NCBI GenBank assembly: GCA_963575745.1 | Contig: CAUYUJ010009779.1 | Location: forward strand, 1,114,664 to 1,178,663 | DNA from: Prorocentrum cordatum | Lineage: Eukaryota; Sar; Dinophyceae; Prorocentrales; Prorocentraceae | DNA: 64,000 bases | Direction: 5' to 3' | Shown here: piece after piece, positions 603-62,165 of the stretch | Layout: every line of letters starts with the position of its first letter | Position numbering within the stretch: position 1 is the stretch's first letter | The notes under the pieces: generated by a model | Databases searched by the model: none | What the model saw: the letters and a program-made list of their open reading frames with translations, nothing else | Told to the model about the DNA's origin: nothing | Program-made: the position numbers and the translations under genes

Positions 603-749
603 CTGGAGTAAACACACATAACAGGATTCCCCGTAGTTTCCGATATTTCCTTGGTGTTTGTCTTCCGCACCACTTCCCATGTTTCCCCCATATTTTCTCG
701 GGGATCGACGATTACTTGTGTCTGTGTGGTCTTTTCCCTCCTGAGGGGC
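603..749 (-). mobile_element. Family B element (putative introner)
   Basis: The core matches the other B copies: GGATTCCCC, two CATATTTTC-like blocks, TCGACGATTA, TGTGTCTGTGT and TTTTCCCTCCTGAG on the plus strand. On the minus strand a GC donor can be placed at 749 and a CTCCAG acceptor at 604-603. Flanking exons were not recognised. Confidence 0.6.
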
Positions 750-1929
750 GGGGGAGAACGACTCTTCCCACGCGACAGCGAATGCGCATGAGCACAATTC
801 CGTGCTAGAGCTCCGCATGACGCCCTGATTACAGGTCGCCGCGGTAGGAGGGAGGAGGGTGCCTAACGAGACGAGAGGGGACAAGATGCAACGCCCAACG
901 ACGACAATCCGACGGGACGCCCTCGGGCCTTGACCTCGACAGGCACGCTACCAAGACCGCTCCGCACTGCAGGACAAACTTGGCATCGACTGCGTGGGAT
1001 TCACCTGGGCAACTTGCCCCCCCCTCCCCCCGTATAGAAGGATGCCCACTGTACATCGACAGAAAGTTTGGCCAGGGCCATCTGGGGTTCACTGGTGCCT
1101 ACGCTCTCTTGACTTGGCCAGGCAGGCGCACAAGATTCACAGTGCTTGCTTCGAAGAAAAATTACCCTCGTGGGTGTCAGCCCATCACTCTGCCCCGCTA
1201 CCCCATGGTGTAAGGAAAGACAACAATAATAAACAAGACGGAGCAACCGCCACATCGTTATGTGGCATTTCCTGAACAAAATCAATCCGCCAGAATCTGA
1301 GCCCAGGAGGCGAAGCGAGGCGAAAACGCACTTCATGTATTGGTCAAAGCGCCTGAGTCCGAGGGCAACGACGCTCTATTCTTAGGTCTTCCCCCATACA
1401 AAAAAAGGCGCCGTTTATCCCTGTCTCCAAACTTGCTTCCTGACAAGGGGTGCGAGGCGAACCCGGCCGTGGCGAAAAGGGCAAGTGGTCCAAGGAGGCG
1501 GAAACGGATGCCATCGGCATCGGTGGTCTGCTTCCCAACTGGCCCCAACAGAATTCCACTCCCAAACGAGGCGCCAAACCGCTCCCGGGCTCGATCCTGC
1601 AAGGCTTCCTTTCCCCGGGACAAATCGGACGGCCCGTGGGCCCGAAACAGGCCTCAGGGGCCGAAGTTGAGGATACCACTATGCCGCGATCCGCGCTGGT
1701 TCCATCGCGATGCGCTGGCGCCGGTGTGTCCTTCCTGCCCCCCCCGAGCCCCTGGAGGTCCCCGTGGAGTCTCCGGGGAAGGGGCCCCGAGGCCCGAGAA
1801 GAGGGGCCACAAGCTCCCAGAGCAAACTTTGGCCTCGACCCTCTCCGACACGCGGGGTGCTGGATTGCTCTGCAGTCACTGGGGGGGAAGCCGTCGACCT
1901 GGAAATGGTGATACACCGCGCACAATCGG
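750..1929. other. No recognised gene
   Basis: I see no motif-bearing reading frame or repeat in this stretch. The overlapping open frames are ordinary for GC-rich DNA. Confidence 0.4.
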
Positions 1930-2098
1930 GGATGGACAGACCCCCCTTTAGTAAAACCGTGGTTTAGTGAAAACGACTTGAGGCCGAAACCTGGCGGGCG
2001 CAAGCCTGGAAAATAACAACCACGGTGCCCTCTCGAGAACCGAAAACGGACAATTCACCAATCGACGTGTCACTGTTGGGGGTCCTGTCCAGCCCCGA
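1930..2098 (-). mobile_element. Family D element
   Basis: Starts with GGGATGGACAGACCCCC and ends with the inverse at GGTCCTGTCCAGCCCCG. The internal CCTGGCGGGCGCAAGCCTGG and ACCGAAAACGGACAATTCAC are shared with the copies near 22.3, 41.6, 49.6 and 60.8 kb. Same polarity as all other copies. Confidence 0.75.
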
Positions 2099-2218
2099 AA
2101 CAAATCGGTGACAGGCCTCCGATAGCGAGCTCGCACGCCCTATGGCAAAATAAGCCATCGGGCACCCCTCGGCGATGAATGGGCAACTCGGGGTCGACGC
2201 ATACTCCCACGAACCTAC

Positions 2219-2402
2219 AATCGGGGCCTTGACCTAAGGAATCCAAAATAAGGAACGAGGCCACCTTTTCCAAGAAGTTAAATTTCGATTTCCAATCGAA
2301 AACATAAACAAAACCTGAGGCAAGGTGCGAAACACCTAAGGAACGTGGAGCCCCTCCCCAACGGAAAGGGTTCCTTCTTCAGGGCCCCGACTGTATCCAC
2401 CT
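2219..2402 (-). mobile_element. Family N element (TIR about 11 bp)
   Basis: Ends are CAATCGGGGCCTTGACC and GGGCCCCGACTGTA. The internal GGAACGAGGCC and GAGCCCCTCCCCAACG are shared with copies at 44272-44378 and 50702-50885, all in the same orientation. Confidence 0.6.
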
Positions 2403-5904: not shown

Positions 5905-7382
5905 TTAGCCGAGTCCACCTCCTTCGTCGCGCCGTCTCCTTCGATTTTGCTGGACCAAGAGACAGGGTTGGTGACCCAGGTCGCGAGGTCGTGGATCGGG
6001 TCGACGTCGGTGTCCGGTTCCTGGAGGAAGCGATTGCCTGGGGTGCGGTGCTTCTTGAACCTGACCCAGAGTGCGGTGAGCCTCCCGTATAAGCCTCGAC
6101 GAAAAGGCGCTTGCGAGCGTTCGCCCGTCCCCGATCACTATGACGAACCGGGTGGCCCTGATGATCGCACCGCTGACTCTGTTGGCATCGTCGATGAAGC
6201 TCCAGTTGCGGCTCCCGTTGGACCTGGTGGTGAGGAAGATCACTACGTCAGCCTCGCCAACCTGACTTGAGACAATCGTAGCAAGCTTGAGTGTGCCCTT
6301 TCTGAGGTGCTGGTGGGCGATGCGCCGAATCCCAGGGAAACTCAGACTGATTCCGACCTGCTGCCAGCCGAAGGTGTCGACAGGCCGGTCATCAAGCTCG
6401 CTCGACACAACTTTCGGTGCCAGTGAGCGGCTGCGGTCAATCCTGTTGCCTTCTCCTCCTCTGCGCTTGCCGCCTTTGCTCTTGCCTTTCCCACCGCGGG
6501 AATGCCGGATGACGCCTGTGATGTAATTCGGGCACTGAGGCCAACCATCCTCCAGGATCGCTGTCTGCAGGTGGTGCCCGACGACCAGGCGCACGGGAAT
6601 CCGCTTGTCCACAGGGGGTATGCGGGCGCGGAGTATGTCCTCTGCCAGGGCTGCTTCAGGGAGGTTCGCGTAGCCTGCGTGTATCTTGGACGTGACTTCC
6701 AGGGAAGGGTTGTCAACGAGTAAGAGACGGTGCCTGTCGTTCGGGTCGGCGGAAGTCGGGTGAAGCGGAGTGAGGGTCGTCTCGAGGTCGTCATTTTCGG
6801 ACTTCGAGAGTCTTGCCAGTTCGCTCAGCCGTTCGTCGTCTAAGGGCCTGATAACGCGCCAAGGAAGACCGTCGACCAGGGGCCGGTCTGCGAGGGGTGC
6901 GAGAAGCCCGCTGGTAATGCAGCTGCTGTAGAAAACCCATCTCGGCCAGGCGAGGATCTGCGGGTGCATCCTGTAGCACACCGCTAACTGAATGACAGCT
7001 GAGTTCTGCCCCTTGAGGGCGTGCAGTAGGCGGTCGAAGATGCTGACGAGGAGGACCAGGTCGGCGGCTAACTTGGAAATGACAGTGGGGGGAAGGTGTT
7101 TGGGATCCCTTACCAGCACTAGGTGGCCACCGCTGCGCACCAGATTGACCAGGGACATAGCGGAGTGGAGTTCAGTGGTCTGGCCCGCCTCATCGATGAC
7201 CAAGAGCGCGAGCTGGTTGGGGCATCCACCTAGTGCCTCAGCCGCTTCGTGGGTGGAGACGATCACTTTCGCCCTGTTGATGAGGGCAGCGCGGAATTGC
7301 ATGACATCCTGCGCGGAACCCTCAGAAAGCTGGAAGCGGCCTGTGGCGTTATGGTAGTGTCCTTCCGGGTGCGGCTTATCAG
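5905..7382 (-). CDS. UPF1-type superfamily 1 helicase, motifs Ib to VI, Walker A exon not found
   Basis: The reading frame carries SF1 helicase motifs in the right order: RAKVIVSTHEA (motif Ib-like), VIDEAGQTTE (motif II, Walker B, near 7195), RDPKHLPP (motif III, usually GDxxQLPP), CYRMHP (motif IV region), IPVRLVVGHHLQTAIL (usual VITPYxxQ region), GEADVVIF (motif V) and NRVSGAIIRATRFVIVIGD (motif VI, usually NVALTRAR). Upf1-like proteins are ATP-driven RNA/DNA translocases. The GKT Walker A loop is absent, so an upstream exon is needed. I start the exon after a GACAG acceptor at 7384-7383 rather than at the first Met at 7440, because that Met lies in a dispersed repeat. Odd points: a basic GKGKSKGGKRRGGEGN insertion, Arg for the usual Gly in motif III, a weak motif VI and a frame change at about 6090. 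It is probably inactive or needs correction. Confidence 0.7.
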
Positions 7383-7525
7383 CTGTCGACCGCGCCGAGC
7401 AAACAGCCGAAGCAGAAACAATCAGATGACGGACGAGCACACATCCTGAACATCCCCTGTATGCTGGTCAGCAGAAGGGCTGGACAAGGCCGAGCAAACT
7501 GAGGCAGAGGGACTCATCCTCTAAA
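7383..7525 (-). mobile_element. Family R dispersed repeat abutting the helicase exon
   Basis: Shares AACAGCCGAAGCAGAA and CTGGTCAGCAGAAGGGCTG with 56385-56560, in the same order and orientation. On the minus strand it ends in pyrimidine-rich CTGCTTCGGCTGTTTGCTCGG followed by an AG in both copies, which fits an intron 3' end. Confidence 0.6.
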
Positions 7526-7534
7526 GGTAGGTAG

Positions 7535-7685
7535 GGTATGTCTCCCTACAGGCGCATTCTATGCGAAAAACCAATCATGTCCCAAACATATTCGAAAACT
7601 ACTCAACAATGGTCAACACATCTACCCCAGACTATGGTTTCACTATTTTGGAGCGTTCCTCCTGTAGAGGGGCAGGCCCGACTTA
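7535..7685 (-). mobile_element. Family C element
   Basis: Arms TCTCCCTACAGGCGC and CCTCCTGTAGAGGGGCAGG, with the internal CTATTTTGGAG block near the right arm as in the other five copies and the same orientation. Confidence 0.65.
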
Positions 7686-9131: not shown

Positions 9132-9450
9132 CCCCCACAATAACCACCCCGACACGCGAAGTCGTTTAGTATACGCACCCAAACTGGGCATCGCTCGGAC
9201 GTCCATGTCCTGTGTTTTTGTTTGGTTTCGTGCGTGCTTTTTCGCCAGCTGATCAAGGATGCTCCTCGATGGTCCTCGCCGAAGGAAAAACGCACACGTC
9301 CGAGCGATGCCAAAACAATGACCACCCCGACACGCGAAGTCGTGTAGTATACGCGCCCAAAGTAGGAATCCAACAAGGGCAGGGCTGCTTAAGAAAACGC
9401 CCAGGGCCGTTTCGTAAACGGCAGTTGTCCGGTCCAGGTGGGTTTTTTCC
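9132..9450 (-). mobile_element. Family K element interrupted by a family A introner
   Basis: A 48-bp block starting ACCACCCCGACACGCGAAG occurs at about 9135-9183 and again at 9318-9366, directly flanking the A element at 9184-9310. The right part, CAGGGCTGCTTAAGAAAACG, matches 47550-47570. Confidence 0.6.
9184..9310 (-). mobile_element. Family A introner
   Basis: The plus strand shows GGCATCGCTCGGACGT at one end and ACGTCCGAGCGATGCC at the other. On the minus strand it starts TTTTG/GCATCG and ends CCCAG, so a 127-nt GC-AG intron can be drawn. Confidence 0.75.
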
Positions 9451-9542
9451 TCCCTAGGCAGTGACGCCGCGCACGCAACCGAGGAAAATCAACACTGTCG
9501 GGTACGTGTCGCTGCTGGTGCCACCACTGCAACAATAGCACT

Positions 9543-9667
9543 CTGGCCATCACTCGGACGTCCATTATGTGTTTTCTTCGGTTTCGTGCGTGGCTTTTTC
9601 GCCAAATGATCAGGGATGCTCCTCGATGGTCCTCGCCGAAGGAAAAATGCACACGTCCGAGCGATGC
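9543..9667 (-). mobile_element. Family A introner
   Basis: 125 nt. Minus-strand donor CCTTG/GCATCG at 9667 and acceptor GGCCAG at 9544-9543. One arm has CACTCGG for CGCTCGG. Confidence 0.75.
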
Positions 9668-9741
9668 CAAGGCACGCGACCAAGGAAAATCAACACTGTC
9701 GGGTACGTGTCGCTGCTGGTACCATCACTGCAACAATAGCA

Positions 9742-9869
9742 CTAGCCATCGCTCGGACGTCCATTTCCCGTGCATTGTTCGGTTTCGTGCGTGTTTTTTT
9801 TCTGCTCGATGGTCCAAGATCGTCCTCAATGGCTCTCGCCAGGGAAAAATGCACACGTCCGAGCGATGC
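9742..9869 (-). mobile_element. Family A introner
   Basis: 128 nt. Minus-strand donor CCTG/GCATCG at 9869 and acceptor GGCTAG at 9743-9742. Confidence 0.75.
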
Positions 9870-9889
9870 CAGGAGCACCAGCATGTACA

Positions 9890-10570
9890 CTTCTGCGCGC
9901 TGACTGTCACGCCCACCCCCCTGCAGGGGGGGGGAGGCACGTCGTCCACCAGCCACTTGGCATCGGGCATCTGGTCCGCCTCGCCAACCGCGCGCGGCCC
10001 GGCGCACCCCCGGCGATGCCCGCGAGGCACGGCACGCCGAACAGATTCTAGGGCGCAAACAATCCTACCTCGCATTTGACCACCCTCGCTTCCAAGAGAT
10101 ACCAAGCGACGCCAAACTACGGTCTGCGCTGGTCAGGCCACTTGACCAGGAGGCGCGTGGTATGACTTGGTTTTGCCTGGAAACGAAAGCGGGGTAGGTA
10201 ATTCACGCTCTGAGATTCTCACTGCGGGTGGGGAAGCTCAGCAACAGTCTCCATTGTCGCAGGGCTGCAGGACACAGACTACGAGAACGGTCCCCATGCA
10301 CCGTACCATGGTAAAAACTCCTTCCAGGCCCTGTAGTTCGGCGTCAAGGGGCCGAGCAACTATGAGGCCGCTTTTTTTGAATCGGCGATACCTCGGGTTA
10401 TCCGGGGAGGGGGGGGGAGAAGGGGGCCGGCCGATAACCTAACCTTCGCGCTGTGGGCAGCCCTGCATATGCCCGCGCCCGCCCACCCCGGACCTGCGCA
10501 GCCGGCCAGGTTTGGTTATCCTGGCGGGGGAGGAGGGGGTGGGCAAGCCCGATAGCCCAGGTTATGTGAA
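9890..10570. other. No recognised gene
   Basis: No conserved motif or repeat family was recognised in this stretch. Confidence 0.35.
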
Positions 10571-10572
10571 TA

Positions 10573-10752
10573 TCGTTTAACCGACACCCACCCCAGCGGC
10601 GTGACCTGGGCCCCACTGGCCGGTTTACCCCCCTAGATGGGTATGTAGGCCGTTTCCTTCGGGTCTCGAGGGGTGTATCCCCAACTGGGGTGGTACTTTG
10701 GTGGGGGTCTCGAAGGGCACGGGGATGGGGACGGGGATCGGTCAAGCGATAC
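10573..10752 (-). mobile_element. Family O element
   Basis: Shares CCTGGGCCCCACTGG, CGAGGGGTGTATCCCCAACT and a GGGGATGGGGA run with 31963-32140, same orientation. Ends are GTTTAACCGA and TCGGTCAAGCGATAC. Confidence 0.65.
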
Positions 10753-10777: not shown

Positions 10778-11168
10778 AACAAGGGGCTCCCAGCTTCGTG
10801 CTTCGCGCTGCGCGAGAGCGCGAAGTGCGCTCTCGCGCCGCCTCCCAGTGGAGATGAGGAGGGTTAGTTGAGCAGGGGCCGACCGTCCCGGCATTAATAT
10901 AGTCATACCACGAAATGTTCTTAGAACCCCAAAAGGTTCTAAGAACAAAAACAATGTTCTTAGAACATAAACCCGATGTGTTAAAACGAAACAGTCCCAG
11001 CCAGAAATGTTCTACGAACATTTCGTGGGAACCACAAAAGGTTCTTAGAACATTGTTTGGTGGGGCGATAGGCGAGCCAGGACGCTTCGCCACTGCTTGG
11101 GTGAGGAGGAATCGGAGCCGACCCGCGAAGCGCGAAGAACTTCGGGCCCTCGAGGGAGCCCGGCGCAG
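10778..11168. mobile_element. Family H palindromic element split by a family G insertion
   Basis: The left half (10778-10864, CTTCGTGCTTCGCGCTGCG) and right half (11101-11168, CGCGAAGCGCGAAGAACTTC) together match the intact copy at 38646-38782. TGAGGAGG is found on both sides of the insert, as expected of a target duplication. Confidence 0.7.
10867..11100 (-). mobile_element. Family G element
   Basis: Begins GAGCAGGGGCCGACCGTCCC and ends GGACGCTTCGCCACTGCTTG. Contains several GTTCTAAGAAC palindromes. The ends are imperfect inverted repeats of each other. Confidence 0.75.
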
Positions 11169-11613: not shown

Positions 11614-11817
11614 AGCCGAGCGATTCCAGGGGCAGAGGAGCGGCGGCGCCGCGGGGGGCCGCCAGCGCGGTGCGGTGCCCCCACGTCGTCCGCGGGCGTG
11701 TGAGGGCACCGCACCGCGGCTGCACGCCGGAGGCGCGCAGGGAGGACCCGGCAGAGCGAGGCGCACGGGAAGCCGCCTCCGCCGCGCTGCCGCCTCCCAT
11801 TGTTTTGGAGGGGCCCC

Positions 11818-12033
11818 AGGACACACCAAGTGAATAAGACACACGAAGAACAGGATTCCCCCTATGTTTTCCCATAGTTTTGTGGTTGTCGTCCTCCCCT
11901 TCTATTTTCCAATAGTTCTGTGGTTTTCGTCTGCCCCCCCCCCCCACTCTCCATCTCTTCCCACATGTTCGGGGGGAATCGGCGATGCACTGTGTCTGTG
12001 TGTGCGTGTGTTTGTTCCCTCCCGAGGTGTGTG
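11818..12033 (-). mobile_element. Family B element, expanded and diverged
   Basis: GACACAC, AACAGGATTCCCC, CCCATAGTTTTGTGG twice, GGGGGAATCGGCGATGCA and TGTGTCTGTGTG in B order. No AG acceptor was found at the usual place, so it may be a degenerate copy. Confidence 0.55.
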
Positions 12034-12179
12034 CTCTCGCACGCCCCCCGCCCCCCCCTTGGCTCGGCACGTCGCTTCGAGCCTGCCTTTGTGGTCGGGG
12101 CCTCGCGCTCGGTCTCCGTGCACGGCCCTCCTCCCCCCATCCCGTCGCCCCTCCTCCGACGCCGTCTCGTCCAGCATTC

Positions 12180-12374
12180 TCGGGCCGGGCGAAAGGGGGG
12201 ATAGCAAAGGGGGGGGGGGGAGAATCAGCTCACGTAGCTGATTTTCCCGGCGCCTCCCGGCGCCGAAGGCGGCCATGTGTCGAGGAATGGGCCCCTCGGC
12301 GAGGCCGAAACCAGCTGCATGCAGCAAATTCCGTACCCCCCCCTTTGCCAATCCCCCCCTTTCGCCCGGCCCGA
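12180..12374 (-). mobile_element. Family E element with 5-bp TSD CATTC
   Basis: Arms TCGGGCCGGGCGAAAGGGG and CCCCTTTCGCCCGGCCCGA. CATTC directly precedes (12175-12179) and follows (12375-12379) the element. Confidence 0.85.
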
Positions 12375-12523
12375 CATTCTCTCTGAGGTCCTTCTCTTGG
12401 CTCCCGCCGCGCTCAGCGAAGCTGCACTGCCACCACTGGGCACGAGGCCAGCAGCCTCTGCGACTGGTCCCCGTGACAACCATTTTACAGTGCGCACGCC
12501 GCCCACCTTCATCGCGACATACT

Positions 12524-12692
12524 AGGGCTCCCAACTTCGCGCTTCGCGCTCCGCGAAGCGCGAAGCGCGAATAACTTCGCGCTCTCGCGCCGCCCCCCCA
12601 AAGGGAGAAAAGGAGGACGAGGAGGAGGGGGAGGAGAAACGAGGACCGCGAAGCGCGAAGCGCGAATAACTTCGCGCCCTCGGGGGAGCCCT
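12524..12692. mobile_element. Family H palindromic element with GGA core
   Basis: Ends AGGGCTCCCAACTTCGCG and CGCGCCCTCGGGGGAGCCCT are inverted repeats. Multiple CGCGAAGCGCGAA palindromes flank a short GAGGAGGAGG core. Confidence 0.7.
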
Positions 12693-12914
12693 TGGACATA
12701 CCGCCACCCGCCCTGCCCCTTCGGAATCGCACTGCGATGCACCAACGCTGACCCTGCCCCTCACGAACGTCCTGCACAACTGTGTACCCTCCTGAGGTGC
12801 TCGTTATCAGCTGGGGCACCTGGCACGACACCGCACCGCGGCTATGATGCAAGGATGCGCGCTCGACAACACTGCTGGGCTATCGAGGCTGTTGATTCGG
12901 ATCCTGATCCTTGC
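12693..12914. other. No recognised gene
   Basis: No motif or repeat relationship was noticed. Confidence 0.3.
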
Positions 12915-13290: not shown

Positions 13291-13479
13291 GAGCGCGTTT
13301 ATTTTTGTTTCGGCGATGAGGGGCGTCATGGGGGGAGGGGGGGGGCGAAAGGGGAGGGTATGAGGTAGCGCCCGCGTTACGTCATAGGGGGGGGGAGGGG
13401 GGGGGGCGAGGGCCATGACGCCCGTCATGCCCCAGCAGTGAAGAAACACGCTCCAGGCGATGGAGCAGAAGGACGGGAT

Positions 13480-13607
13480 CTGGCCGTCGCTCGGACGTCC
13501 ATTCCTTGTGTTTTATTTCGGTTTCGTGCGTGGCTTTTTCGCCAAATGATCAAGGATGCTCCTCGATGGTCCTCGCCGAAAGAAAAATGCACACGTCCGA
13601 GCGATGC
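13480..13607 (-). mobile_element. Family A introner
   Basis: 128 nt. Minus-strand donor CCCTTG/GCATCG at 13607 and acceptor GGCCAG at 13481-13480. It lies about 190 bp upstream (in transcription) of the methyltransferase-like exon. Confidence 0.75.
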
Positions 13608-13689
13608 CAAGGGATTGGCAGAAACATCGAAGGCGACGCCCGAGGCTCGGGCGACGCACCCGGCCAGCCTCCAGCGGTGGTTTTCCGGA

Positions 13690-14490: not shown

Positions 14491-14609
14491 GAAGGGTAAG
14501 GGAGAGAGGGGGGGAGGCCTCCGAGGGGGAGGCTGGTCGCGAGAGGGCGCCGACCGCCCGGCACCTGCAGAGAAGGCCCGCGCCTGCTGAGGAGCACCGG
14601 GGAGACGAA

Positions 14610-15030: not shown

Positions 15031-15258
15031 TTGTGGCGCTCCGCGCGGATCTGCGCTGGACCGCCCTCCCTAGCGCTCGGAGCGCGCCAAGGGCGGCGCC
15101 ACCCTCCCGATCCCCCCACTCCTTTCTCGTCGGGCCCGGCACATGGGAGATTGGATTGAAATGGGCCCAGGGGCACACAAATGAATAGACACACCTCGCA
15201 AGACTCCCGTTTCTGTCCATATCTTCTGGATGTTCGCTTCCCTCCCACTTCCCATAAT
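15031..15258 (-). mobile_element. Fragments of a family J hairpin and a family B element
   Basis: 15031-15110 carries GGCGCTCCGCGCGGAT and CGGAGCGCGCCAAGGGCGGC as in the J hairpins. 15147-15258 carries GGCACACAAATGAATAGAC as in family B but lacks the usual right end. Confidence 0.5.
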
Positions 15259-16680: not shown

Positions 16681-16974
16681 TGGGAGGGGGTGCGAGGGCC
16701 GACGCCGATCGGCAAGACAACGCATGACCGCCCAACCTGGAGGGCGGCACGGGGCCCCTGCGAGGGCGCCTCGGTCCCTCGCGAAGCTCCCGCCGAGGTG
16801 AGGCGCCGGGCGCGGCTGCCCTTCCCGCTGTCCCCCGTGGGTGAAGAGAAGGGCCCGACAGTGTACCGACCGTCCCGGCAGTCCTATAGTATGGTGAAGA
16901 GAAGGGGTGAAGAGACCGTACCGACCGACCGTACCGACCCCCGTGGGTGAAGAGAAAAACCTGACAGTGTATTT

Positions 16975-17207
16975 GAGCAGGGACCGACCGTCCCGGCATT
17001 CCTCTAGTAGAGTCCTACCACGGCATGTTCTCAGAACCCAAAAATGTTCTAAGAACAAACGCGATGTTCTTAGAACATCAGCCTGATGTGTTGAAACAAG
17101 ACAGTCCCAGCCAGAACTGTTCTAAGAACATTTTGTGGGAACCACAAAGGTTCTTAGAACATTGTTTGGTAGGACTATAGGCACGCCAGGACGCTTCGCC
17201 ACGGCTT
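16975..17207 (-). mobile_element. Family G element
   Basis: GAGCAGGGACCGACCGTCCC start, GTTCTAAGAAC palindromes, CCAGGACGCTTCGCCAC end. A partial duplicate of its left end sits at about 16868-16895. Confidence 0.75.
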
Positions 17208-17210
17208 GAT

Positions 17211-21739: not shown

Positions 21740-22250
21740 TCAGATCTGTTTCCCAATAGCTGCCTTATCATAGACGACCACTGACCATGCTGAGGCACCG
21801 GTGCTACTTATGTGTTGGGAGGGCGGGTGGGAGTGAGCGACACCGCTTGCCAGGAGGGAGAGTGTCTTAATCCCTATCCCTACCCCTATCCCGATCCCCC
21901 TATCGTGGCCCCCAGCGGGACCCCCATTGATGTCCACATTGCGATTGTGCAGAACTGCGTTGGGCCTTCTGCCGCAATTGTGACATTTCGTGTCACTGTG
22001 CCCCACTCCTTCGTTGCCTCGACTGCGCCTCCAAACATCGCACGGCGGGTCCTCGCTGAGCCGGTCTACCCCGCAGCCAAGGTTGAGGATCCGTCTGGTA
22101 CGGTCCTGGGGCATCGCGCAACATCTGGGACAAAAACAAGCGTGTGCGGCAGATGGGCTCGAGGGGTGTCACAAAGTTGCTGCCGCCGTCGGCGCGAACA
22201 GCCTCAGATCGAACCGATGGGATGATTGCCCGACCTGTCGGCCAATCGTC
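21740..22250. other. No recognised gene
   Basis: Unremarkable sequence apart from a short CCCTAT-rich run near 21870-21900. Confidence 0.35.
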
Positions 22251-22253
22251 GGC

Positions 22254-22412
22254 GGTGGGCAAACCTCCCTTTAGTAAACCTCCCCTTAGCGACAACGACC
22301 TGGGACCGAAACCGACGGGCCTGGACCCGCAAGAATGACGGCCGCGAGGCCCTCTCGCGAACCGAAAACTGCCAATTCCTTAGAGGAGGTCTGCCCACCT
22401 CCGAAATCGGCA
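22254..22412 (-). mobile_element. Family D element
   Basis: GTGGGCAAACCTCCCTTTAG start and GAGGTCTGCCCACCTCCG end, interior GGCCCTCTCGCGAACCGAAA. Closest to the copy at 60749-60917. Confidence 0.75.
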
Positions 22413-24530: not shown

Positions 24531-24538
24531 AGGCAAAA

Positions 24539-24734
24539 TCGGGCCGGGCGAAAGGGGGGGATAACAAAGGGGGGGTTGAGAACCAGCTCACGTAGCTGAT
24601 TTTCCCGGCGCCTCCCAGGGCTGGGAGGCGCCCATGTATGGAGGAATGGGCGTGGCTGGGGGGCCGAAACCTGCTGCATGCAGCAGATTTCGTACCCCCT
24701 CCTTCTCCCTATCCCCCCCTTTCGTTCGGCCCGA
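24539..24734 (-). mobile_element. Family E element with 5-bp TSD CAAAA
   Basis: Arms TCGGGCCGGGCGAAAGGGG and CCCTTTCGTTCGGCCCGA. CAAAA abuts both ends (24534-24538 and 24735-24739). Confidence 0.85.
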
Positions 24735-24760
24735 CAAAACGGCGTCGACCTCTCCTATTT

Positions 24761-24955
24761 TCGGGAGCGGAAAAGAGGGGGGCATCCAAGAGGGGGGGGG
24801 TGCAAATCATGACCGGCGACATGTGCGCGGCCCAGCGGGGGGGCCAGGGATGTAGTAACATAAGAAGAGGCGCCATGGAAGCTGGGGAAAAATCACGGCA
24901 CGCGCCATGATATCCACCCCCCCCTAGTCCTCACCCCCCTCTTTGCCGCCCCCGA
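24761..24955 (-). mobile_element. Family F element
   Basis: Arms TCGGGAGCGGAAAAGAGGGG and CCCCTCTTTGCCGCCCCCGA; interior GCAAATCATGACCGGCGACA and CGCGCCATGATATCCACC. No clear target duplication at this copy. Confidence 0.75.
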
Positions 24956-25024
24956 GTAGGGGGACGGGCCCGACTCAACCCGAGAGCCCGGAAGGGGCCG
25001 CCACAGGCCGGGCCCGCTCTCTGG

Positions 25025-36202: not shown

Positions 36203-36379
36203 ACCTAGCTTTGCGTTTCGCGCAGCGCAAAGCGTGATGATCGTCTCACTCTCGCGCCGCCCCCATCTGAGAACCTCCGGGCTGCGTGCGGAAACCGCCG
36301 GCTGCCTCCGAAGACCAACGGATGCCCCCGAGATCTCCCTCGGAAAAACCCCCGAAGACGTCCGAACAGCGCCGTCGGT

Positions 36380-36650: not shown

Positions 36651-36800
36651 AGGTGAAGGGGCCCCAGGGCACACAAATACATAGACAAAAATAGCAATAT
36701 GCCCCATCTTTTTCCCCATCTTTTCTGGGCTTCTGTCTTCCCCCCCACTTCCCAGATTCTCCCAGATTCTCCTGGGAATCGAAGATGGATAGTGTCTGTG
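36650..36800 (-). mobile_element. Family B element
   Basis: GGGCACACAAATACATAGAC, two CCCCATCTTTT blocks, GGGAATCGAAGATGGA and TGTGTCTGTGTGTG in B order. The AG acceptor seen in most copies is missing here. Confidence 0.65.
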
Positions 36801-37184
36801 TGTGTTTGGCGGCGGCCGCGGCCGCCTCAGCCTGCCTTCACGTGGTTGCGCGAGGCCATCTGCGAGGCGGCGTCCGAGCCCGCCTCCGGCCTCGCGCGCG
36901 CGGGCGCCGACGGCAGCGCCGACGCCCGCGGGCCTCCGACGCCGAGGGCGCCGACGCCCGCGACGCGGACGCCGACGCCGCCGCCTTGACGACGACGACG
37001 ACGAGGACGAGGACGAGGACGGCAAGGACGTCAACGCCGAGGTCGGGCCCGACGACGACGGAGGGGGATGTTCCTGCGCCGTGCTGCCCTGCGAGGGGGA
37101 GGGGGTGCTGGCCAGAGGAGCGAGAGGAGGATGACGAAACGGGGAGGGAGGTATTGAGGGGAGAACGAGGATCGGGGGGGACGA
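36801..37184. other. GC-rich triplet-repeat region
   Basis: GACGCCGACG- and GACGACGAC-type runs, open in several frames. Nothing recognisable. Confidence 0.35.
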
Positions 37185-37310
37185 AAGGGTAAGACAGCAA
37201 AGGGCAGGGTAAAGAATCAGTTCACGCAGCTGGTTTTCCTGGCGCCGGAAGGCGCCCATGTATCGAGGACTGGGCCCGGCGGCGGGGCGGAAACCGGCTG
37301 CATGCGGCGA
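37185..37310 (-). mobile_element. Family E element, degenerate
   Basis: AAAGAATCAGTTCACGCAGCTG, GGCGCCCATGTATCGAGGA and CGGAAACCGGCTGCATGC match the E interior. Both arms are eroded. Confidence 0.6.
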
Positions 37311-40920: not shown

Positions 40921-40963
40921 TGACCCCCGTTTGCACTGACCCCCGTCTCGAGGCTCCCGAAGG

Positions 40964-41158
40964 TCGGGTCGGGCGAAAGGGGGGGATAGCAAAGGGGGGG
41001 TTTGAGAATCAGCTCACGTAGCTGATTTTCCCGGCGCCTCCCGGCGCCGGAGGCGGCCACGTATCGAGGAATGGGCCCCTCGGTGAGGCCGAAATCAGCT
41101 GCATGCAGCAAATTTCGTAACCCCCCCTTTCCCAATCCCCCCCTTTCGCCCGACCCGA
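40964..41158 (-). mobile_element. Family E element with 5-bp TSD GAAGG
   Basis: Arms TCGGGTCGGGCGAAAGGGG and CCCCTTTCGCCCGACCCGA. GAAGG abuts both ends. Confidence 0.85.
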
Positions 41159-41352
41159 GAAGGGCCTCGGGCCCGGCTCCGGCTGGGCCGGGGCCTCCCG
41201 ACCGCCCCCCAATCGCGCCCGAGAGGGGGAGCCCGTGGCCCGGGCGCGCCCGCTCTCCCGGCGGTGCGGCGGCAACCGCGGCCTCTCGCTGCCGAGTGGC
41301 ACGCGGCGGGCCGTGCACCGTCCCCGTCTCTCTCGGGGATGGACGGAGCCCC

Positions 41353-41523
41353 CTTTTGAAGGGGCCCTGGGACACACAAATCAATAGACACAGATAAAAG
41401 GATCCACCATATTTTCCAATACGTTCTGGGTTTATGTCTTCCCCCCCACTGCCCGTATTCTCCCATATTTTCTGGGGAATCGACGATTCATTGTGTCTGT
41501 TTTTTTTTCCCCCCTGAGTGGAC
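41353..41523 (-). mobile_element. Family B introner
   Basis: 171 nt. Minus-strand GT donor GACG/GTCCACTCAGG at 41523 and acceptor CTTCAAAAG at 41354-41353. Confidence 0.7.
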
Positions 41524-41535
41524 CGTCCCCGCCTC

Positions 41536-41884
41536 TCGGGGATGGACGGAGCCCCCTTTAGCAAAACGTGGACTTGTGAAAGCGACCTCGGGCCCAAACT
41601 GGGGGGAACAAAAAGTGGCATAAACATAAACACTCGGAGGTCCGCGCGGATTTCTCGGATCGGCGCTGGGGCCCCCCAGCGGCGCCTCCGGCGCCGATCC
41701 GAGAAATCCGCGCGGACCTCTGAGTTTGTATGTTTATGTCATTTTTTGTTCCCCTACAAACCTGGCGGGCGCAGGCCTGGAAGAGGACGGCCGTGGCGCC
41801 CTCTCGAGGACCGAAAAAACGGCCAATTCGCTATAGTCGACGTGTCAGGGCAGGGGTTCTGTCCACCTCCGAGCCTCTGGTGTC
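41536..41884 (-). mobile_element. Family D element interrupted by a family J hairpin
   Basis: GGGATGGACGGAGCCCCC start, interior resumes at ACCTGGCGGGCGCAGGCCTG and ends GGTTCTGTCCACCTCCG. CAAAC flanks the insertion on both sides. Confidence 0.75.
41604..41757. mobile_element. Family J hairpin nested in family D
   Basis: GGGGAACAAAAAGTGGCATAA is inverted as TTTATGTCATTTTTTGTTCCCC. Inner GGTCCGCGCGGATTTCTCGG pairs with CCGAGAAATCCGCGCGGACC, giving a stem of more than 60 bp. Confidence 0.85.
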
Positions 41885-44860: not shown

Positions 44861-44890
44861 CATCACCCCGCTTCTGCGAGTAGCCGACGC

Positions 44891-45019
44891 CTGGCCTTCG
44901 CTCGGACGTCCATTCCCTGTGTTTTTTGTTCGGTCTTCTGCGTGGTTTGTTTCACCAAATGACCAAGGATGCTCCTCGATGGTCCTCGCCGGAGAAAAAA
45001 GCACACGTCCGAGCGATAC
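44891..45019 (-). mobile_element. Family A introner with GT donor
   Basis: 129 nt. Minus-strand donor TCTTG/GTATCG at 45019, the only GT among the nine copies, and acceptor GGCCAG at 44892-44891. Confidence 0.75.
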
Positions 45020-45047
45020 CAAGACGCTGGACCTGGAGGCTCTGGGG

Positions 45048-45652: not shown

Positions 45653-45913
45653 GGCATGGAGTGCGTTGCACGGCACGCGCGGGATGAGATGATGTTCGGC
45701 ATCGAAGAGGGGGTCTCGAACAGCCTGGTGCAGAGCGGTCCTTTGCTGCAGAAAGGAGAACGTCAACTGCCACTGCCTGCCGAGGGACGTAGGGCGGCCT
45801 GCCTCCTGCGCACGCAGAGTGCGCACCCTGTACAAGCGTGGCACGCCGACGAAAAATAAAGAACTGGCAAGAGTACACTTTGCCTCTGGCCCGCTCGACC
45901 TGGTGCAGTCCTG

Positions 45914-46330
45914 TCGGGCCGGGCGAAAGAAAACGGGGATAGAAGGGGTGGGGGGTGGGGGGTGAGACTCAGCTCACGTAGCTCATGTTCCCGGCGCCTC
46001 CCGGCGCCGGGAGGCGCCCATGTATCGAGTAGTGGGCCTGCCAGAGGGGCCGAAACCAGCTGCATGCATTATGTTGCTCCCGTCGTGCTTAAGGACCTCA
46101 TCCAGAAATAATTTCGAGCGCCCCGGAAAGTGTCGAAACAGTGTCGAAACACGTGTCGGGCGAGCGTCTCCCAGGGCCCGACACGCGAAAACCATCGAGT
46201 TTTGGTACTTTTTGGGGGGCTCGGAACTCTTTCTCGTGATCAAGGCTCTAGTAGGTTGGAACATCACAATGCATGCAGCAGATTTCGTACCCCCCCCTCT
46301 CTCCCTATCCCCCCCTTTCGTTCGGCCCGA
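45914..46330 (-). mobile_element. Family E element with 5-bp TSD, interrupted by family I
   Basis: TCCTG flanks the whole element (45909-45913 and 46331-46335). Arms TCGGGCCGGGCGAAAG and CTTTCGTTCGGCCCGA. Confidence 0.85.
46069..46269 (-). mobile_element. Family I element nested in family E, 8-bp TSD
   Basis: TGCATGCA is present at 46061-46068 and 46270-46277; removing the insert and one copy restores the family E consensus. An 8-bp duplication is typical of hAT, P or Merlin-like DNA transposons, but no transposase is present. Confidence 0.85.
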
Positions 46331-46393
46331 TCCTGTGACACCGCGCGAATGTGGTGCGGCGCCTCGATCCCCCAACCTCCTGCCCTGGTATGT

Positions 46394-46600
46394 GCCTCTA
46401 GGGGCCCAGGGACACGCAAACACATAGACACAACTCCCAGGAAGACCTTAGATTCCAACAAATGTCCTGGATGCTCGATTCCCCCTCCACTGCCCATGCC
46501 ACTTCCCATGTGTCCCGTGCTTTACTGAAGATCGACTTATACGTGTTATACGTGTGTCTGTGTCGATGTGTGCCTCCTGGTGAATGTGCCCCCCTTCGGG
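46394..46600 (-). mobile_element. Family B element, diverged
   Basis: GGGACACGCAAACACATAGAC start and TGTGTCTGTGTCGATGTGTGCC end; acceptor CCCCTAG on the minus strand. Confidence 0.55.
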
Positions 46601-46767
46601 CGTTGGCAAAACTAGGTTTAGTGGGACCCGGTCTAATGATGTGCACTGAGGGACCGCCCCCCCCCGCCCCGTTTCACTAACCGGACCTGCCGTAACCCGA
46701 AGAAACACCACCTACGGCAAACCTGGTTTAGTGATTCTGGCCAATTCAGGGGCGCCGGGGCCCTACC

Positions 46768-46955
46768 GTCGGGAGAAAGGGGGGAATAGCAAAGGGAGGT
46801 TTGAGAATCAGCTCACGTAGCTGATTTTCCCGGCGCCTCCCGGCGCCAGAAGCGCCCATGTATCCAGGAAGGGGCCCCTCGGTGAGACCGAAACCAGCTG
46901 CATACCGCAGATTTCGTAACCCCCCATTTCCCAATCCCCCCCTTTCGTCCGGCCC
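46768..46955 (-). mobile_element. Family E element with 5-bp TSD CTACC
   Basis: Interior identical in layout to the other E copies; CTACC at 46763-46767 and 46956-46960. Confidence 0.8.
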
Positions 46956-46998
46956 CTACCACGAACCGGGTCGCCTCACCTAGGGTCCTGGCCATGAT

Positions 46999-47631: not shown

Positions 47632-47922
47632 TGGATCCTTGGAGCAGCAGTACGCGATCTTCTTCGGCGACCACGACAGCTCCAGGCAGTGCATGCAGTG
47701 GTGATACCCCGCGTCGCAGTCGTACTCGCTGTTGTCTGGCGCCGGGGGAGCGTTGGACGGCGGCAGCCCAGAGGGCGGGGGGAGCTCCGACGGGCAGCCC
47801 TTGTTCGCGGTCTTGCAGCAGTCCGCCACCGCGCCCCCCTCGGCACGCGCGGGCGCGCGGTGGTGCCACGGCGGCCTGGCCCTGTGCTCCTGCAGCTTCC
47901 CTGCGCGCGTGCACCCCCAGCC
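47632..47922 (-). CDS. Modular Cys-rich membrane protein gene, 3' exon (two further Cys modules)
   Basis: After the family A intron the frame reads GWGCTRAGKLQEH, then ADCCKTANKGCPSELPPPSG, EYDCDAGYHHCMHCLELSW and SPKKIAYCCSKDP. The pattern DCxAG(Y/F)...W(S)xxKKxxCC...GC is the same module as in the exon at 48425-49368 (PCPIDCNAGYND and KKVYCCLHEGKGCP), so this is the continuation of that ectodomain. A GT donor at 47631 ends the exon; no stop codon is reached, so more modules probably lie downstream. Coding sense is supported by the repeated module; exact junction residues to the 48.4-kb exon are unclear. Confidence 0.65.
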
Positions 47923-48051
47923 CTGGCCATCGCTCGGACGTCCATTCCCTGTGTTTTTGTTTCGGTTTCGTGCGTGGCTTTCTCGCCAAATGATCAAGGA
48001 TGCTCCTCGATGGTCCTCGCCGAAGGAAAAATGCACACGTCCGAGCGATGC
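47923..48051 (-). mobile_element. Family A introner inside the Cys-rich protein gene
   Basis: 129 nt. Minus-strand CTCTTG/GCATCG donor and GGCCAG/GGCTGG acceptor. Length is a multiple of three and one frame is open throughout, so an unspliced transcript would add 43 residues without a stop. Confidence 0.75.
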
Positions 48052-48160
48052 CAAGAGCTTGCCGGCCGAGGCTCCCTGGCCATCGGGCGTCGAAGACAAG
48101 CGGCCCCAGGTGGCCGATCTGGTCCAGGGCTCCTTCAAGGAGGCCCCCAGGCGTTTCAAG
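48052..48160 (-). CDS. Possible small exon of the Cys-rich gene
   Basis: The frame reading GRLSSTPDGQGASAGKLL joins in phase with GWGC across the family A intron. There is no domain signal, so it may also be part of a longer intron. Confidence 0.3.
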
Positions 48161-49521: not shown

Positions 49522-49524
49522 TCG

Positions 49525-49694
49525 GGGATGGACAGACCCCCATTTAGTAAAACGTGGTTTAGTGAAAACGACCTGAGGCCCAAACCTGGCGGGCGCAAGC
49601 CTGGAAAATGTCGGCCACGGCGCCCTCTCGAGAACTGAAAACGGACAATTCACTAATCGACGTGTCACTGTTGGGGGTTCTGTCCACCCCCGAA
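49525..49694 (-). mobile_element. Family D element
   Basis: GGGATGGACAGACCCCCATT start and GGGTTCTGTCCACCCCCG end. Nearly identical to 1930-2098. Confidence 0.8.
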
Positions 49695-55091: not shown

Positions 55092-55157
55092 CTCGATTGA
55101 GCAGGGGCCGACTGTCCCGGCACGCCTGTCGTGCTACCACGGAGTGTTCTTAGAATC
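55092..55157 (-). mobile_element. Family G element, left-end fragment
   Basis: GAGCAGGGGCCGACTGTCCC to GTGTTCTTAGAA only. It is followed by GAACGCCCGAAATGGGCACG, also found near 40.25 kb. Confidence 0.6.
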
Positions 55158-56560: not shown

Positions 56561-56753
56561 TCGGGGGGGGGGGGGGGGCAGGGGCTTCGCTGTCGGCGGG
56601 CAAGCAAAAGGGGCAGGGGCAGAGGACGAGCACGACAATCCCGACCCCGACTGGGGAAACCTGGGCCCAGCTGGGCAGTCTCCCCCCCACCCCACCCCAC
56701 CCCGGTGCTGATGCGTGCCGCCTCCTTCGGGGCTCTGGAGCACCCATCCCCAC

Positions 56754-56881
56754 CTCGCCATCGCTCGGACGTCCATGCCCTGTGCCTTTTTCGGTCTCGT
56801 GCGTGTTTTTTTGTGTCAAATGATCGAGGATGCTCCTCGATGGTCCTCGCCGAAGGAAAAATGCACACGTCCGAGCGATGC
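56754..56881 (-). mobile_element. Family A introner just after an EF-hand exon
   Basis: 128 nt. Minus-strand donor CGCTTG/GCATCG at 56881 and acceptor GGCGAG at 56755-56754. Its donor lies 9 nt downstream of the in-frame TGA of the EF-hand frame. Confidence 0.75.
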
Positions 56882-56890
56882 CAAGCGAAA

Positions 56891-58680: not shown

Positions 58681-58869
58681 GGGGGAGGGGGGGGGGGAAA
58701 AGGCTCCGGCAATTTTCCACAGTAAAGCGGCGGTGGATCACGCTCTCTCACATATGCAAACACCTGCGGAACCAGAACAAATACGTAAACGATGTGCATG
58801 ACAAATATAGGAACAACATCCGCCACCGTGCCGCTGGGCACGGAATAGGCGTGTCCTCAGGTCGTTTGC

Positions 58870-59480
58870 CCAATCCCCTGAGCCTCAGTCCTCGACCCTA
58901 AGCATTCTTCAGTGGCACGGCCCCAAAATTCTGAAACCTGCTTGGACTTGGCCAAGAGGTCCCCGAATCGTCGAGCGATCGCTGCAATACGCTCAAGATG
59001 CCCCCCAGGCGGCCCAACAGGCCTCCAAGACGCCCCAACAGGCCTCGAATAAGCTTCACAACAGGGCCCCAAGAGTCAAAAATCATTGATGTCCTTGTTG
59101 TATGTGATGGTTTTTGGTGTTCTCGCCTTTTCGGTTTCACGACGCTCCTAGACGGCCCTAGAGGCCCCCAAGATCGCCCCAAGACGGCCCGAGGCATGTA
59201 AAAGACACCAGGACGGCCCAAGAGGGTCCCAAGACGGCCAAGAAGCGCCCAAGGCGGCCCGAGAGGCCCCGAAGGCGGCTCCAAGAGGGGGGCCCATGTG
59301 ACGGACATTTCGAGCCCTCGGCCCCGAGGGCCCCAAGAGGCCCCCAGTAGCCCCATGGAGGCCGCCAAGAATTCCCAAGAGGCCCCCAAGACGGCGCCAA
59401 GAGGCCCCCAAGAGGCTCCAAACCTGCCCTAAAGAGGCCCCCGAAGGCTCCGAAGGGATTCCAAGAAACACCCCTGGAAA
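58870..59480 (-). repeat. Family T array (CCCAAGANGGCC units)
   Basis: Units such as GGCCCCCAAGA, CCAAGACGGCCC and CCAAGAGGCCCC. Contains AAAAATCATTGATG near 59080, echoed at 62865. Confidence 0.75.
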
Positions 59481-62165
59481 CTCTGACCCACAACCCAAGC
59501 ACGGTGGCGGAATGGGCCGATGGCACCATCCGCACAGAGGCTGCCTACATGCCTCACGCGAAGCTTCCCGAGGAAGACGTGGAGGCAATACTTGACCAAA
59601 TGGAGGCCGAATGCCGGGCAGCACGCGCAAAATGACTCCACGTGATCTCCGCCAGAGACTTCAACGTTCAAGCAGTGCCGTGCACAGAAAAGACGACAAA
59701 GAAATCGTCGGTCAAAACGCTGTGCCGCAGCGAAGCGACAGAGGCTCGACACTGGTGCATTGGTCAGGTCTTCACGGCCACGCCGTTGCTAACACATTCA
59801 TTCACACTGCATTCGAGGGCGCTTGGACTGTCAAAAACGCCGATGGCATGAGTGCATTCCTGCGCAATTACCGCTGTTGTTGACGTCGGTTCTGATCAGA
59901 AGCTGGTTCGCTTATATCTGAAGCTGCCCACGGACTCCTGAAAAAAAATCAGACAGACAAGTACGTCATCATCCTTTGTATCCTGGGTCGTCATACGCAA
60001 CGTTGCTAGGAGAACGGCTTCGCCATGTCGATTGGCAGAACGCCGCGCCGCATGAACGAGAACAGTTGCTGAACAGAACCATGCTCATCGCCGCAAGGGA
60101 AGGCAACAATAACGTTGGGAAACATCATTCTGACAAGAACATGACCGATCTTGACAAGCAGATCAATTTCCTGATTGCCGAGCGTCGTCTGCAAGAAGCC
60201 GATCCACAAAAACTGGGGTAAGCAAGTACAGCATTGGATATGCAATCGGCGCAATGAGACCACGCCAAGTAGGATCAAGACGACTCTTGCCGACTCCAAA
60301 AAAAATGAAGAACCTATAGGTCTTGCGGAGGAACCGCAAACGCGACAATATCATTTCGGCGGCGGGCCCGGGTAGCACGCTGCTGCACGAACGCGAAGAC
60401 ATCGCAGAGGTGTTCGAAACCTTCTTCGAGAACCTCTACGCGAGCACCAGACACGGTTGAAGGGGGCACGTCTACGGCAAGCAATCTGGCCATCTGATTC
60501 CCTCGTTCATACCGGAGGAGCTCGCCGCTGCAATTCGAAATATGAAGAACGGCATGGCGGCGGATGATCAGGGCGCGCGAGCAGAGTCTTCAAGGCATAC
60601 TCCTCGATCTTGCGCGAAACCATCCTTGAAACCTTCCAACAACTGCTTAGCCCTGCTGCTGAGATCCGCGCGGACTGGTCATCGGCCGGAATCTCCGTTC
60701 TCTACAAAAACGGGGCGCCTCGCGCCCGTCAAACCACAAGACTCGGCGGTGGACAAACCTCCCTTTAGTAAACCTCCCTTTGGTGAAAACAGCCTGGGAC
60801 CGAAACCGCCGGACCTGGACCCGCAAAAATGACGGCCGCGACGCCCTCTCGCGAACCGAAAACGGCCAATTCCTTAATCGACGTTTCAGGGTAGGAGGTC
60901 TGTCCACCTCCGAAAGACCATCGCGATCCTCGCCGTCTTGCACAAGCTACTCAATAGAGCGATTTGCAGCACACTGCCGAGGGACGCGATCTGGGAGCCA
61001 TCCGTCGACCGGGCGGCATACCGCCCAGGGTACAGCACTGCGGACCACCTGATGAGCACAACGTTCCCGCATGAGTCCACGGGGGGCTACAATGTTGAGC
61101 TGTGGGTTGGTATGGTGGACCTCGAAGTGGCTTTCGACACGGCAGAACACGGCACTCCTTTGTGAGCGCTAGAGAAGCAGAATGTCTGGCCAGAGTACGT
61201 CGACCTGCTGAAACGGCTGTATGCAGCACCATCGGCTCGTGTTGCCGCGGGAGTGCGAAGCCGCGCGTTCAGCAGATCTCCGGGCGTCAAGCAAGGCGAT
61301 CCGACCAGCTCGTTTCTCTGCATTGTCGTCATGGAACAGACCTTCTAGTCTCTCAAAAGAAGGTGGGGCAGCCTCAACGCCAGGCACACTGGTGAATACT
61401 ATGGCACCGTTGTCGACGACGCAACGAACACCCTGAACATCTTGAGGTTCGCCGACGACGTGCTCCTGCTATCTTCCATCAAGGGAGACGTGGGCCGCAT
61501 GATCGTGGACCTGGAAACCGAAGCGAAGAGGTACGGCCTGAAACCGCACATTGGCAAAACGGTGGTGGTAACCAAATCAGCAACGAGGCCGGCAACCATC
61601 CGATGCGCCAGTAACGACGTGCGAATACTGCAGCCAGGAGATGCGGGCAAATACATCGGCCGCCAGTTCACCTTGGACAACTACCACGGGGAGGAGATGA
61701 ACAACCGCTCCTCGTCTGCATTGGCAACGTCTTGGAGCAAGAAGAGTCTACTATGCAATCGACGCGTGCCCCTTCGTGATCGCATGATGCTCTTCCACGC
61801 CAGCGCTACGCCCTGCGCAATGTAAGGGTGTGCTGCTTGGACTTTGACAGTCGAGCAGGAGAGGCAACTCTGCGCAACGCAGAGGAAGATTCTGCGACAC
61901 ATGGTCGTCGGCGCGGGGCGTCAGCCAGACAAGCAATGGGTGGAATACATACGCAGGGCAACGGGCGCGTGTGAGCAACTCGCAAAGAGACACGGGGTCC
62001 AGGACCGGACAAACATCCTCTGGAAAAGCATATGGTCGGCTGCCGTCAGACTTGCTGCAACACAAGATGAACAATGGGCCGCACGTCTGACGAAGTGGGT
62101 GCCGTGCTTTCGAGCACACGCACGACGAAGCGTAGGAGGCAAGCGCAAACGCTGGTGCGATTGAC
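59466..62165 (+). pseudogene. Broken LINE-type retrotransposon (endonuclease, reverse transcriptase, C-terminal segment)
   Basis: The plus strand reads, across several frames: AAYMPHAKLPEEDVEAILDQ, ISARDFNVQA and GSDQKLVRLYLKLPTDS (apurinic-like endonuclease region, usual GDFNA and SDH motifs altered); FIPEELAAAIRNMKNG and AGISVLYKNGAPR (RT start), then after a family D insertion IAILAVLHKLLNRAICSTL, AAYRPGYSTADHL, GMVDLEVAFDT (palm motif A region), LRFADDVLLLSS (motif C, usual YADD/FADD) and HIGKTVVV; then QCATQRKILRHMV-like and ARRSVGGKRKRWCD. Stops and frameshifts (for example near 59632, 59938, 60460, 61163, 61347, 61823) make it non-functional. It is the only recognisable coding sequence on the plus strand. 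No poly(A) tail or target duplication was recognised. Confidence 0.8.
60749..60917 (-). mobile_element. Family D element inserted into the LINE reverse transcriptase
   Basis: GTGGACAAACCTCCCTTTAG start and GAGGTCTGTCCACCTCCG end. It interrupts the RT between YKNGAPR and IAILAVLHKLL, at the conserved NYRPIA region. Confidence 0.8.

Follow-up and report, generated by a model that had tools for sequence, protein, structure and literature searches.

Introners are among the leading explanations of intron gain in bursts, and it is assumed that they lie in sense because they need to be spliced. Introners with terminal inverted repeats (TIRs) and target site duplications (TSDs) are known, including those of dinoflagellates and of Prorocentrum cordatum, as described in the relevant passages of two reports (PMC9860276, PMC10666404). 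Here, we describe the short TIR elements in a 64,000-nucleotide stretch of P. cordatum DNA (contig CAUYUJ010009779.1, positions 1,114,664 to 1,178,663; hereafter the window), nearly all of which share one orientation, although only a minority of their duplication-flanked copies could be removed by exact canonical splicing.

Among the closest described elements are those of the same species (Dougan et al. 2023, PMC10666404): their introns end in inverted and direct repeats, and the genes are mostly unidirectional, whereas the passages in question cover introns only, and TIR orientation outside exon junctions is absent from them. The introners of Symbiodinium microadriaticum (Gozashti et al. 2022, PMC9860276), as far as the corresponding passages describe them, resemble family B of the window in their TIRs, duplications of ~4 bp, and AG at the 3′ end, and in that the first bases of the duplication are usable as a 5′ splice site in some copies (GT at 33254 and GC at 44890). 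Family B differs from them in that most copies are without a canonical exact-splice option, and one lies in an intron and another in a repeat. The introner elements of Amoebophrya (Farhat et al. 2021, PMC7789003) are reported, in the passages available, to have inverted repeats, direct repeats of 3-5 nt, non-canonical boundaries, and co-oriented genes, as here; a family-specific inverted repeat was not found there, whereas the window families have clear conserved TIRs.

The first-pass annotation had proposed that nearly all short TIR elements of the window are co-oriented, and this proposal held: 52 of 53 comparisons are direct, for which the probability by chance is <1e-13. Miniature inverted-repeat transposable elements (MITEs) normally insert in both orientations. 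The window elements resemble them in being short, in their TIRs and target duplications, in that no coding capacity was found, and in their nested insertions, but differ from them in pointing one way. The exceptions in the window are the near-palindromic family Z (5:2) and one pair, P6. Along the contig, where both strands were searched, same and opposite orientations stand at 104:5, and none of 76 copies from eight families over 1.2 Mb is antisense. Family F has a real minority orientation on the contig (3 of 18 copies), and most exceptions belong to the self-complementary families F and Z. Segmental duplication, a one-sided search, or chance is scarcely credible as the source of this pattern; copies B 9543/9742 are a real tandem duplicate, but the search covered both strands, flanks and duplications belong to the individual copies (30/44 vs 15%), the chance probability is as small as given above, and the arrays in the same DNA are split 11:11. 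As to the strand of the host, both recognisable genes of the window, gene 1 and a superfamily-1 helicase, are on the minus strand, as had been claimed for the host exons; among the filtered open reading frames (ORFs) of the plus strand, 104 + 1 of which were scanned, Pfam gave no host gene. In 45 of 60 masked kilobases of the window (p=4.9e-5) and in 16 of 20 unmasked contig samples (p=0.0025), the minus strand holds more T than A, a skew that fits minus-strand transcription. The same skew was not significant beside kinase genes (16/24, p=0.33), nor was GC skew in the window (p=0.41).

Most intact copies are ~130-240 bp long with complementary ends, and conserved complementary ends of the kind expected of MITEs are found in families A-H and J. 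Family A ends in TCAGGAGGG...CCCCTTCA, family B in CTTGGCATCGCTCGGACGT...ACGTCCGAGCGATGGCCAG, and family F in AAGTCGGGC...GCCCGACTT, and the ends of families C and D are TCGG...CCGA. Both ends could be located for 44 of 52 copies, which were examined for target duplications. Exact flanking repeats of at least 4 bp occur at 30 of these 44 copies, compared with 15.1% of 1892 cross-paired controls, and those of at least 5 bp at 22 of 44, compared with 4.1%; in the contig samples, repeats of at least 4 bp flank 20 of 42 copies (controls, 10.6%). The duplication length is ~4-5 in B, 5 in A, C, and D, and 7-9 in F and G (three copies); constancy within a family is clear for C and D, approximate elsewhere, and weak for E, which shows weak 4-mers. 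The families have 2-10 copies within 64 kb, and families B and D each have at least 40 scored matches in the genome. No transposase domain was seen in the Pfam-scanned ORFs of the window, and no genome search for an autonomous partner was made. The elements are best explained as short TIR elements, non-autonomous and of the introner/MITE kind. Patterns derived from B, C, A, F, and E gave no matches in viral contigs, and the B pattern gave five in genome contigs, four of which cover merely ~20 bp of the end repeat. The first ~200 bp of a Crocinitomicaceae metagenome-assembled contig (L003, JALRFI010000048.1) consist of P. cordatum-like B and C elements; this is a chimeric or contaminated contig end, to which we give little weight.

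Splicing was examined by asking whether the element plus one duplication could be removed exactly with GT, GC, or GA at the 5′ end and AG at the 3′ end. For A 27303-27477, the one such case shown, the copy bounds coincide with intron bounds; its homologs read ...LKEDYDFTC... unbroken, and the element is removed as a GA-AG intron between AAG and GAG. Among duplication-flanked window copies, 8 of 30 are competent in the sense direction (14.9% in random-target controls) and 4 of 30 in the antisense direction (11.8%), and the contig samples gave 2 of 20 and 1 of 20, respectively. Splice sites, whether carried or co-opted, are thus not a feature of each copy, and 8/30 and 2/20 competent copies do not establish whole families as introners. 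Fifteen independent non-competent copies from families that also hold a competent one (A 1, B 3, C 4, D 4, and E 3) all point in one direction, and two of them (B 9543 and C 40964) have a canonical option on the plus strand. Copy B 33255 was excluded from the fifteen, because its longest repeat scored it as non-competent while the GTTT seen by eye makes GT-AG.

Some copies lie in an intron or in other repeats. B 29441-29579 and E 27927-28157 are deep inside an intron of gene 1, and four oriented copies are inside other repeats (E in G, H in E, 46069-46266 in C, and B in K); in all four nested cases, when the halves of the interrupted host are joined, the alignment with an intact relative runs through the junction. 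A 36027-36206 was also considered as nested in G, and was not counted because the joined alignment stopped at the junction. Direct duplications of unusual length adjoin three copies on both sides: 47 bp for B 9178-9316 (44 identical), 42 bp for A 41355 (41 identical), and an exact 16 bp for H 40508. In addition, H 32782 has 11 exact flanking bases 7 bp off its end (~18 bp by eye). These duplications of 16-47 bp (regions 9133-9423, 41340-41560, 40490-40725, and 32765-33010) far exceed the usual 4-9 bp; the segment flanking B 9178-9316 is present once in the intact K repeat at 47491-47601.

These data bear directly on the idea that all copies inserted in exons and that only the spliceable orientation survived. 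The exact intron at A 27303 agrees with it, as do the A copies with a clear duplication, three of four of which are of the AG/G type, and likewise C 45913, D 41521, E 32593, and H 40508. In addition, should non-canonical ends be widely spliced in P. cordatum, as they are reported to be in Amoebophrya, which has non-canonical introns with direct repeats (PMC7789003), the competence test would be too strict. Nevertheless, exonic splicing alone is improbable, since competent copies amount to 8/30 and 2/20 against 15% of random targets, two copies are deep in an intron, and the nested copies were never exonic. Thus, the earlier suggestion that only copies splicing in the sense direction were kept is borne out by A 27303, but it extends to a minority of the copies and leaves the nested ones uncovered.

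Orientation relative to genes at other loci was assessed in the P. cordatum assembly (4.13 Gb), in which gene strands were taken from 131 protein-kinase matches and flanks of 4 kb were sampled beside 25 kinase genes on 24 contigs (12 plus, 13 minus). Nine oriented copies at 7 loci gave a sense to antisense ratio of 8:1: beside plus-strand genes, C, C, D, and I are sense and F is antisense, and beside minus-strand genes, A, E, E, and H are sense. The ratio is 9:1 at E<=1e-4 or 1e-3, and 18 of the 25 flanks are without any scored element. Moreover, B and D were translated on both strands and queried against 5.8 billion proteins, with a balanced query for B (19 of 27 copy-frames open per strand) and 100 sense vs 80 antisense residues for D. 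Five proteins passed, all annotated for P. cordatum and on five different contigs (P0144 and P0148 with B; P0145, P0146, and P0147 with D), and the piece is in the sense direction in all five, for which we estimate a chance of ~4%. The B piece of P0144, a protein named as histone H3-K79 methyltransferase, sits between LDLGSGTGRAV and VAWALLQP, which we take to be the Dot1 motif; the translated pieces of P0144-P0148 are probably unrecognised introns inside conserved enzymes. Pairing an element with a gene for a kinase or an ion channel on the same contig, at distances of 120 kb to 1.8 Mb, was uninformative as an orientation test, with B on the same strand in 3 of 3 cases (contigs C1003, C5557, and C14656) and D on the opposite strand in 2 of 2 (C5324 and C13680), because gene strands switch along contigs. 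On contig C18744, the kinase match at 160 kb is on the plus strand, with C plus and F minus nearby, and the one at 557 kb is on the minus strand, with H minus nearby; the opposite-strand gene matches of this contig and of C7202 (39 vs 412 kb) are likely strand switches. A link between element direction and transcription is well supported; random orientation relative to transcription, which was partly checked here, was not found. A further alternative, that close opposite-facing copies are lost to avoid local inverted repeats while families flip at random between loci irrespective of genes, would produce uniformity inside 64 kb but is very unlikely, given that orientation is uniform over 1.2 Mb, follows the gene strand elsewhere, and coexists with retained long foldbacks.

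Two causes could account for such a link. The one we prefer, tentatively and at somewhat less than even confidence, is that orientation is fixed relative to transcription genome-wide, that exonic copies are selected by splicing, and that other antisense copies are purged by selection. Insertions in exons would have to be spliced out, which only sense copies could be; one copy demonstrates this, and about eight others of the window are consistent with it. Antisense copies elsewhere in transcribed DNA may be removed by selection rather than kept out at the insertion step: once sense copies of a family abound, one in antisense would yield RNA complementary to very many pre-mRNAs, and weak harm of this kind might be enough for purging in a large haploid population, such as P. 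cordatum presumably has. Purging covers families of differing duplication length, and it accommodates exceptions that belong mostly to F and Z; it is ranked slightly above the second cause. Weighing against it are the absence of any antisense copy among the 76, the arrays retained in both orientations, and an antisense motif burden that is not clear, with mixed motif counts.

The second cause, directional insertion, holds that orientation relative to transcription is set, in exons, introns, and older repeats alike, by the machinery of transposition or by some step common to the elements, such as R-loops, transcription bubbles, or a fork polarity that runs with the genes. It is a serious contender that we consider short of probable, and the first-pass annotation had named orientation-biased insertion as its alternative reading. 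The unbroken series over 1.2 Mb, the uniformity of copies without a splice option (15 in the window and 18 of 20 along the contig) and of the four nested copies, and the lack of a clear antisense burden all favour it, and the duplications of 16-47 bp hint at an unusual integration or repair step. On the other hand, it must apply across families with different duplication lengths, and family F has its minority copies. To our knowledge, no eukaryotic TIR transposon inserts directionally relative to transcription. With slightly more reserve, it is conceivable that several TIR families insert, and not merely survive, one way relative to transcription or a co-oriented fork, with exons, introns, and older repeats alike as targets, so that new introns arrive already spliceable; the long duplications may be traces of this step. 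The genome search results raised directional insertion modestly to its present standing, lowered exon-only splicing from unlikely to improbable, and lowered local avoidance from improbable to very unlikely.

Orientation biased relative to genes is also known for mammalian intronic retroelements, in which selection or possibly transcription-coupled repair is invoked in the passages concerned (PMC1794541, PMC3517506, and PMC5717806); there, the bias is against sense, whereas the TIR elements of the window are sense with almost no exceptions. A published report of uniform orientation for non-exonic copies was not found in the parts of the literature covered, which do not include Huff et al. 2016 and Roy et al. 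2023, and we make no claim of its absence from print. Something beyond the need for splicing seems to set the direction of landing or survival. Copies without a splice option that run one way over more than 1 Mb and flip with the gene strand elsewhere make selection and directional insertion distinguishable by test; if true, the latter would add to the known properties of TIR transposition in eukaryotes. Under either cause, the direction of transcription in dinoflagellate chromosomes would be readable from these repeats by sequence alone.

Table 1. Coordinates of the elements and host genes in the window (-, minus strand).
Feature	Position	Strand	Remarks
A copy	609..748	-	
A copy	11804..12025	-	
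A fragment	15160..15256	-	
A copy, exact intron of gene 1	27303..27477	-	GA-AG; duplication AAGGAG; homologs P0023/P0027 contiguous across site
A copy	34891..35051	-	TSD AAGGT, GT-AG competent
A copy	35720..35883	-	TSD AGTGAC, no canonical exact splice
A copy	36027..36206	-	TSD AGGTG, GT-AG competent; adjoins G fragment 36208-36264
A copy, left end degraded	36654..36807	-	
A copy	41355..41521	-	42 bp direct duplication (41 identical) at both sides
A fragment (weak)	46389..46497	-	
B copy nested in repeat K	9178..9316	-	47 bp direct duplication (44 identical)
B, two copies in single tandem duplication (9471-9669/9672-9871)	9542..9876	-	counted once
B copy	13478..13617	-	TSD ATCCC
B copy in gene 1 intron 30081->27532	29441..29579	-	
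B copy	33254..33387	-	TSD GTTT by eye (GT...AG)
B copy	44890..45025	-	TSD GCGTC, GC-AG competent
B copy	47919..48061	-	
B copy	56745..56889	-	
C copy	12177..12379	-	TSD GAGAATG, no canonical exact splice
C copy	24537..24737	-	TSD TTTTG, no canonical exact splice
C fragment	32143..32248	-	
C degraded copy	37166..37308	-	
C copy	40958..41161	-	TSD CCTTC; canonical exact splice none on minus, one on plus
C copy split by nested repeat 46069-46266	45913..46330	-	TSD ACAGGA (GA-AG competent)
C copy	46763..46957	-	
D copy	1926..2100	-	TSD TTGT
D copy	22249..22406	-	TSD CGATT
D copy split by foldback 41603-41756	41521..41872	-	TSD AGAGGC (GC-AG competent)
D copy	49522..49694	-	TSD GAAGT
D copy	60742..60915	-	TSD GTCTT
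E copy nested in G element	10865..11100	-	
E copy	16970..17210	-	
E copy in gene 1 intron	27927..28157	-	
E copy split by nested H element	32593..33048	-	
E fragment	55097..55155	-	
F copy	7524..7684	-	flank repeat CCTTTAGAG
F, further assigned copies	14206-14358, 14615-14757, 37582-37735, 49372-49520	-	
F	28651-28850		orientation left out of assignment; flank repeat GACCAGTG
G copy	12525..12695	-	flank repeat GTATGTC
G, further copies	10784-11161 (split by E), 36208-36264, 38659-38790, 45267-45347	-	
H copies	24761..24963, 32782-32989, 40508-40705	-	second nested in E; third with 16 bp exact flanking duplication
I copies	14501..14596, 44763-44887, 47319-47482	-	
J copies	2216..2398, 44322-44369, 50702-50886	-	
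Repeat K	9133..9423, 47491-47601	-	first interrupted by B; second intact
P1 pair	10568..10742, 31966-32140	-	
P2	13989-14174/22626-22800	-	
P3	17211-17400/46069-46266	-	
P4	16337-16452/40246-40423/55174-55238	-	
P5	17413-17605/53597-54441	-	
Family Z, near-palindromic	41603..41756, 15020-15101, 27602-27725, 33387-33577, 39886-40060, 46994-47180, 53371-53543	mixed 5:2	exception
P6	21145..21222		inverted relative to 34192-34269; exception
Gene 1, uncharacterised dinoflagellate protein	27190..31929	-	exons ~31929-31811, 30858-30081, 27532-27473, 27312-27190
Superfamily-1 helicase exon(s), AAA_11/AAA_12	5908..7467	-	Pfam

The window is best explained as part of a P. cordatum contig that is transcribed mainly off the minus strand and dense in short elements. 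Its GC content of ~60% fits the 59.7% given for the P. cordatum genome in the passages of one report (PMC10666404), and the earlier assignment to a dinoflagellate was right. The helicase exon at 7467-5908 matched AAA_12 (E=6e-16) and AAA_11 (E=3.5e-11). Pfam was run on a filtered subset of the 582 ORFs of at least 50 aa, of which 107 per strand were kept: 97 minus and 104 plus ORFs, then ten more (nine minus, one plus), with ten plus ORFs repeated. The plus-strand ORF at 61349-61822 has a weak reverse-transcriptase match (RVT_1, E=4.6e-5) below the Pfam cutoff.

The minus-strand ORF 30072-30869 (P0001), which is part of gene 1, matched dinoflagellate proteins, best of all the annotated P. cordatum proteins P0003 (94%) and its paralog P0004 (77%). 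P0003 is apparently the gene model of this very locus, judging by the sequence match of its first 70 residues to 33979-33770. Intron 1 of gene 1 (~31810 to 30859) has the direct repeat CGCAGG at both bounds and is of the GC-AG type, and a foldback at 30882-31012 stops just short of its acceptor. Intron 2 (30081-27532) is without clear GT/GC/GA-AG ends, with GGCG alone shared; it could be an intron of a non-canonical, direct-repeat type, or the gene copy could be decaying.

Rfam gave no matches in the window, and positions 26731-26830 are a scaffold gap of 100 N. A 73 bp tandem repeat in six copies of ~95% identity lies at 15526-15981, and an 11 bp unit, TTAGCTTTAGC, is repeated ~42 times at 53805-54268, differing from the GGA/CCT arrays in the rest of the window. 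The right arm (~428-598) of a foldback at 271-609 has ~40 relatives in the genome, on both strands and mostly of 94-98% identity.

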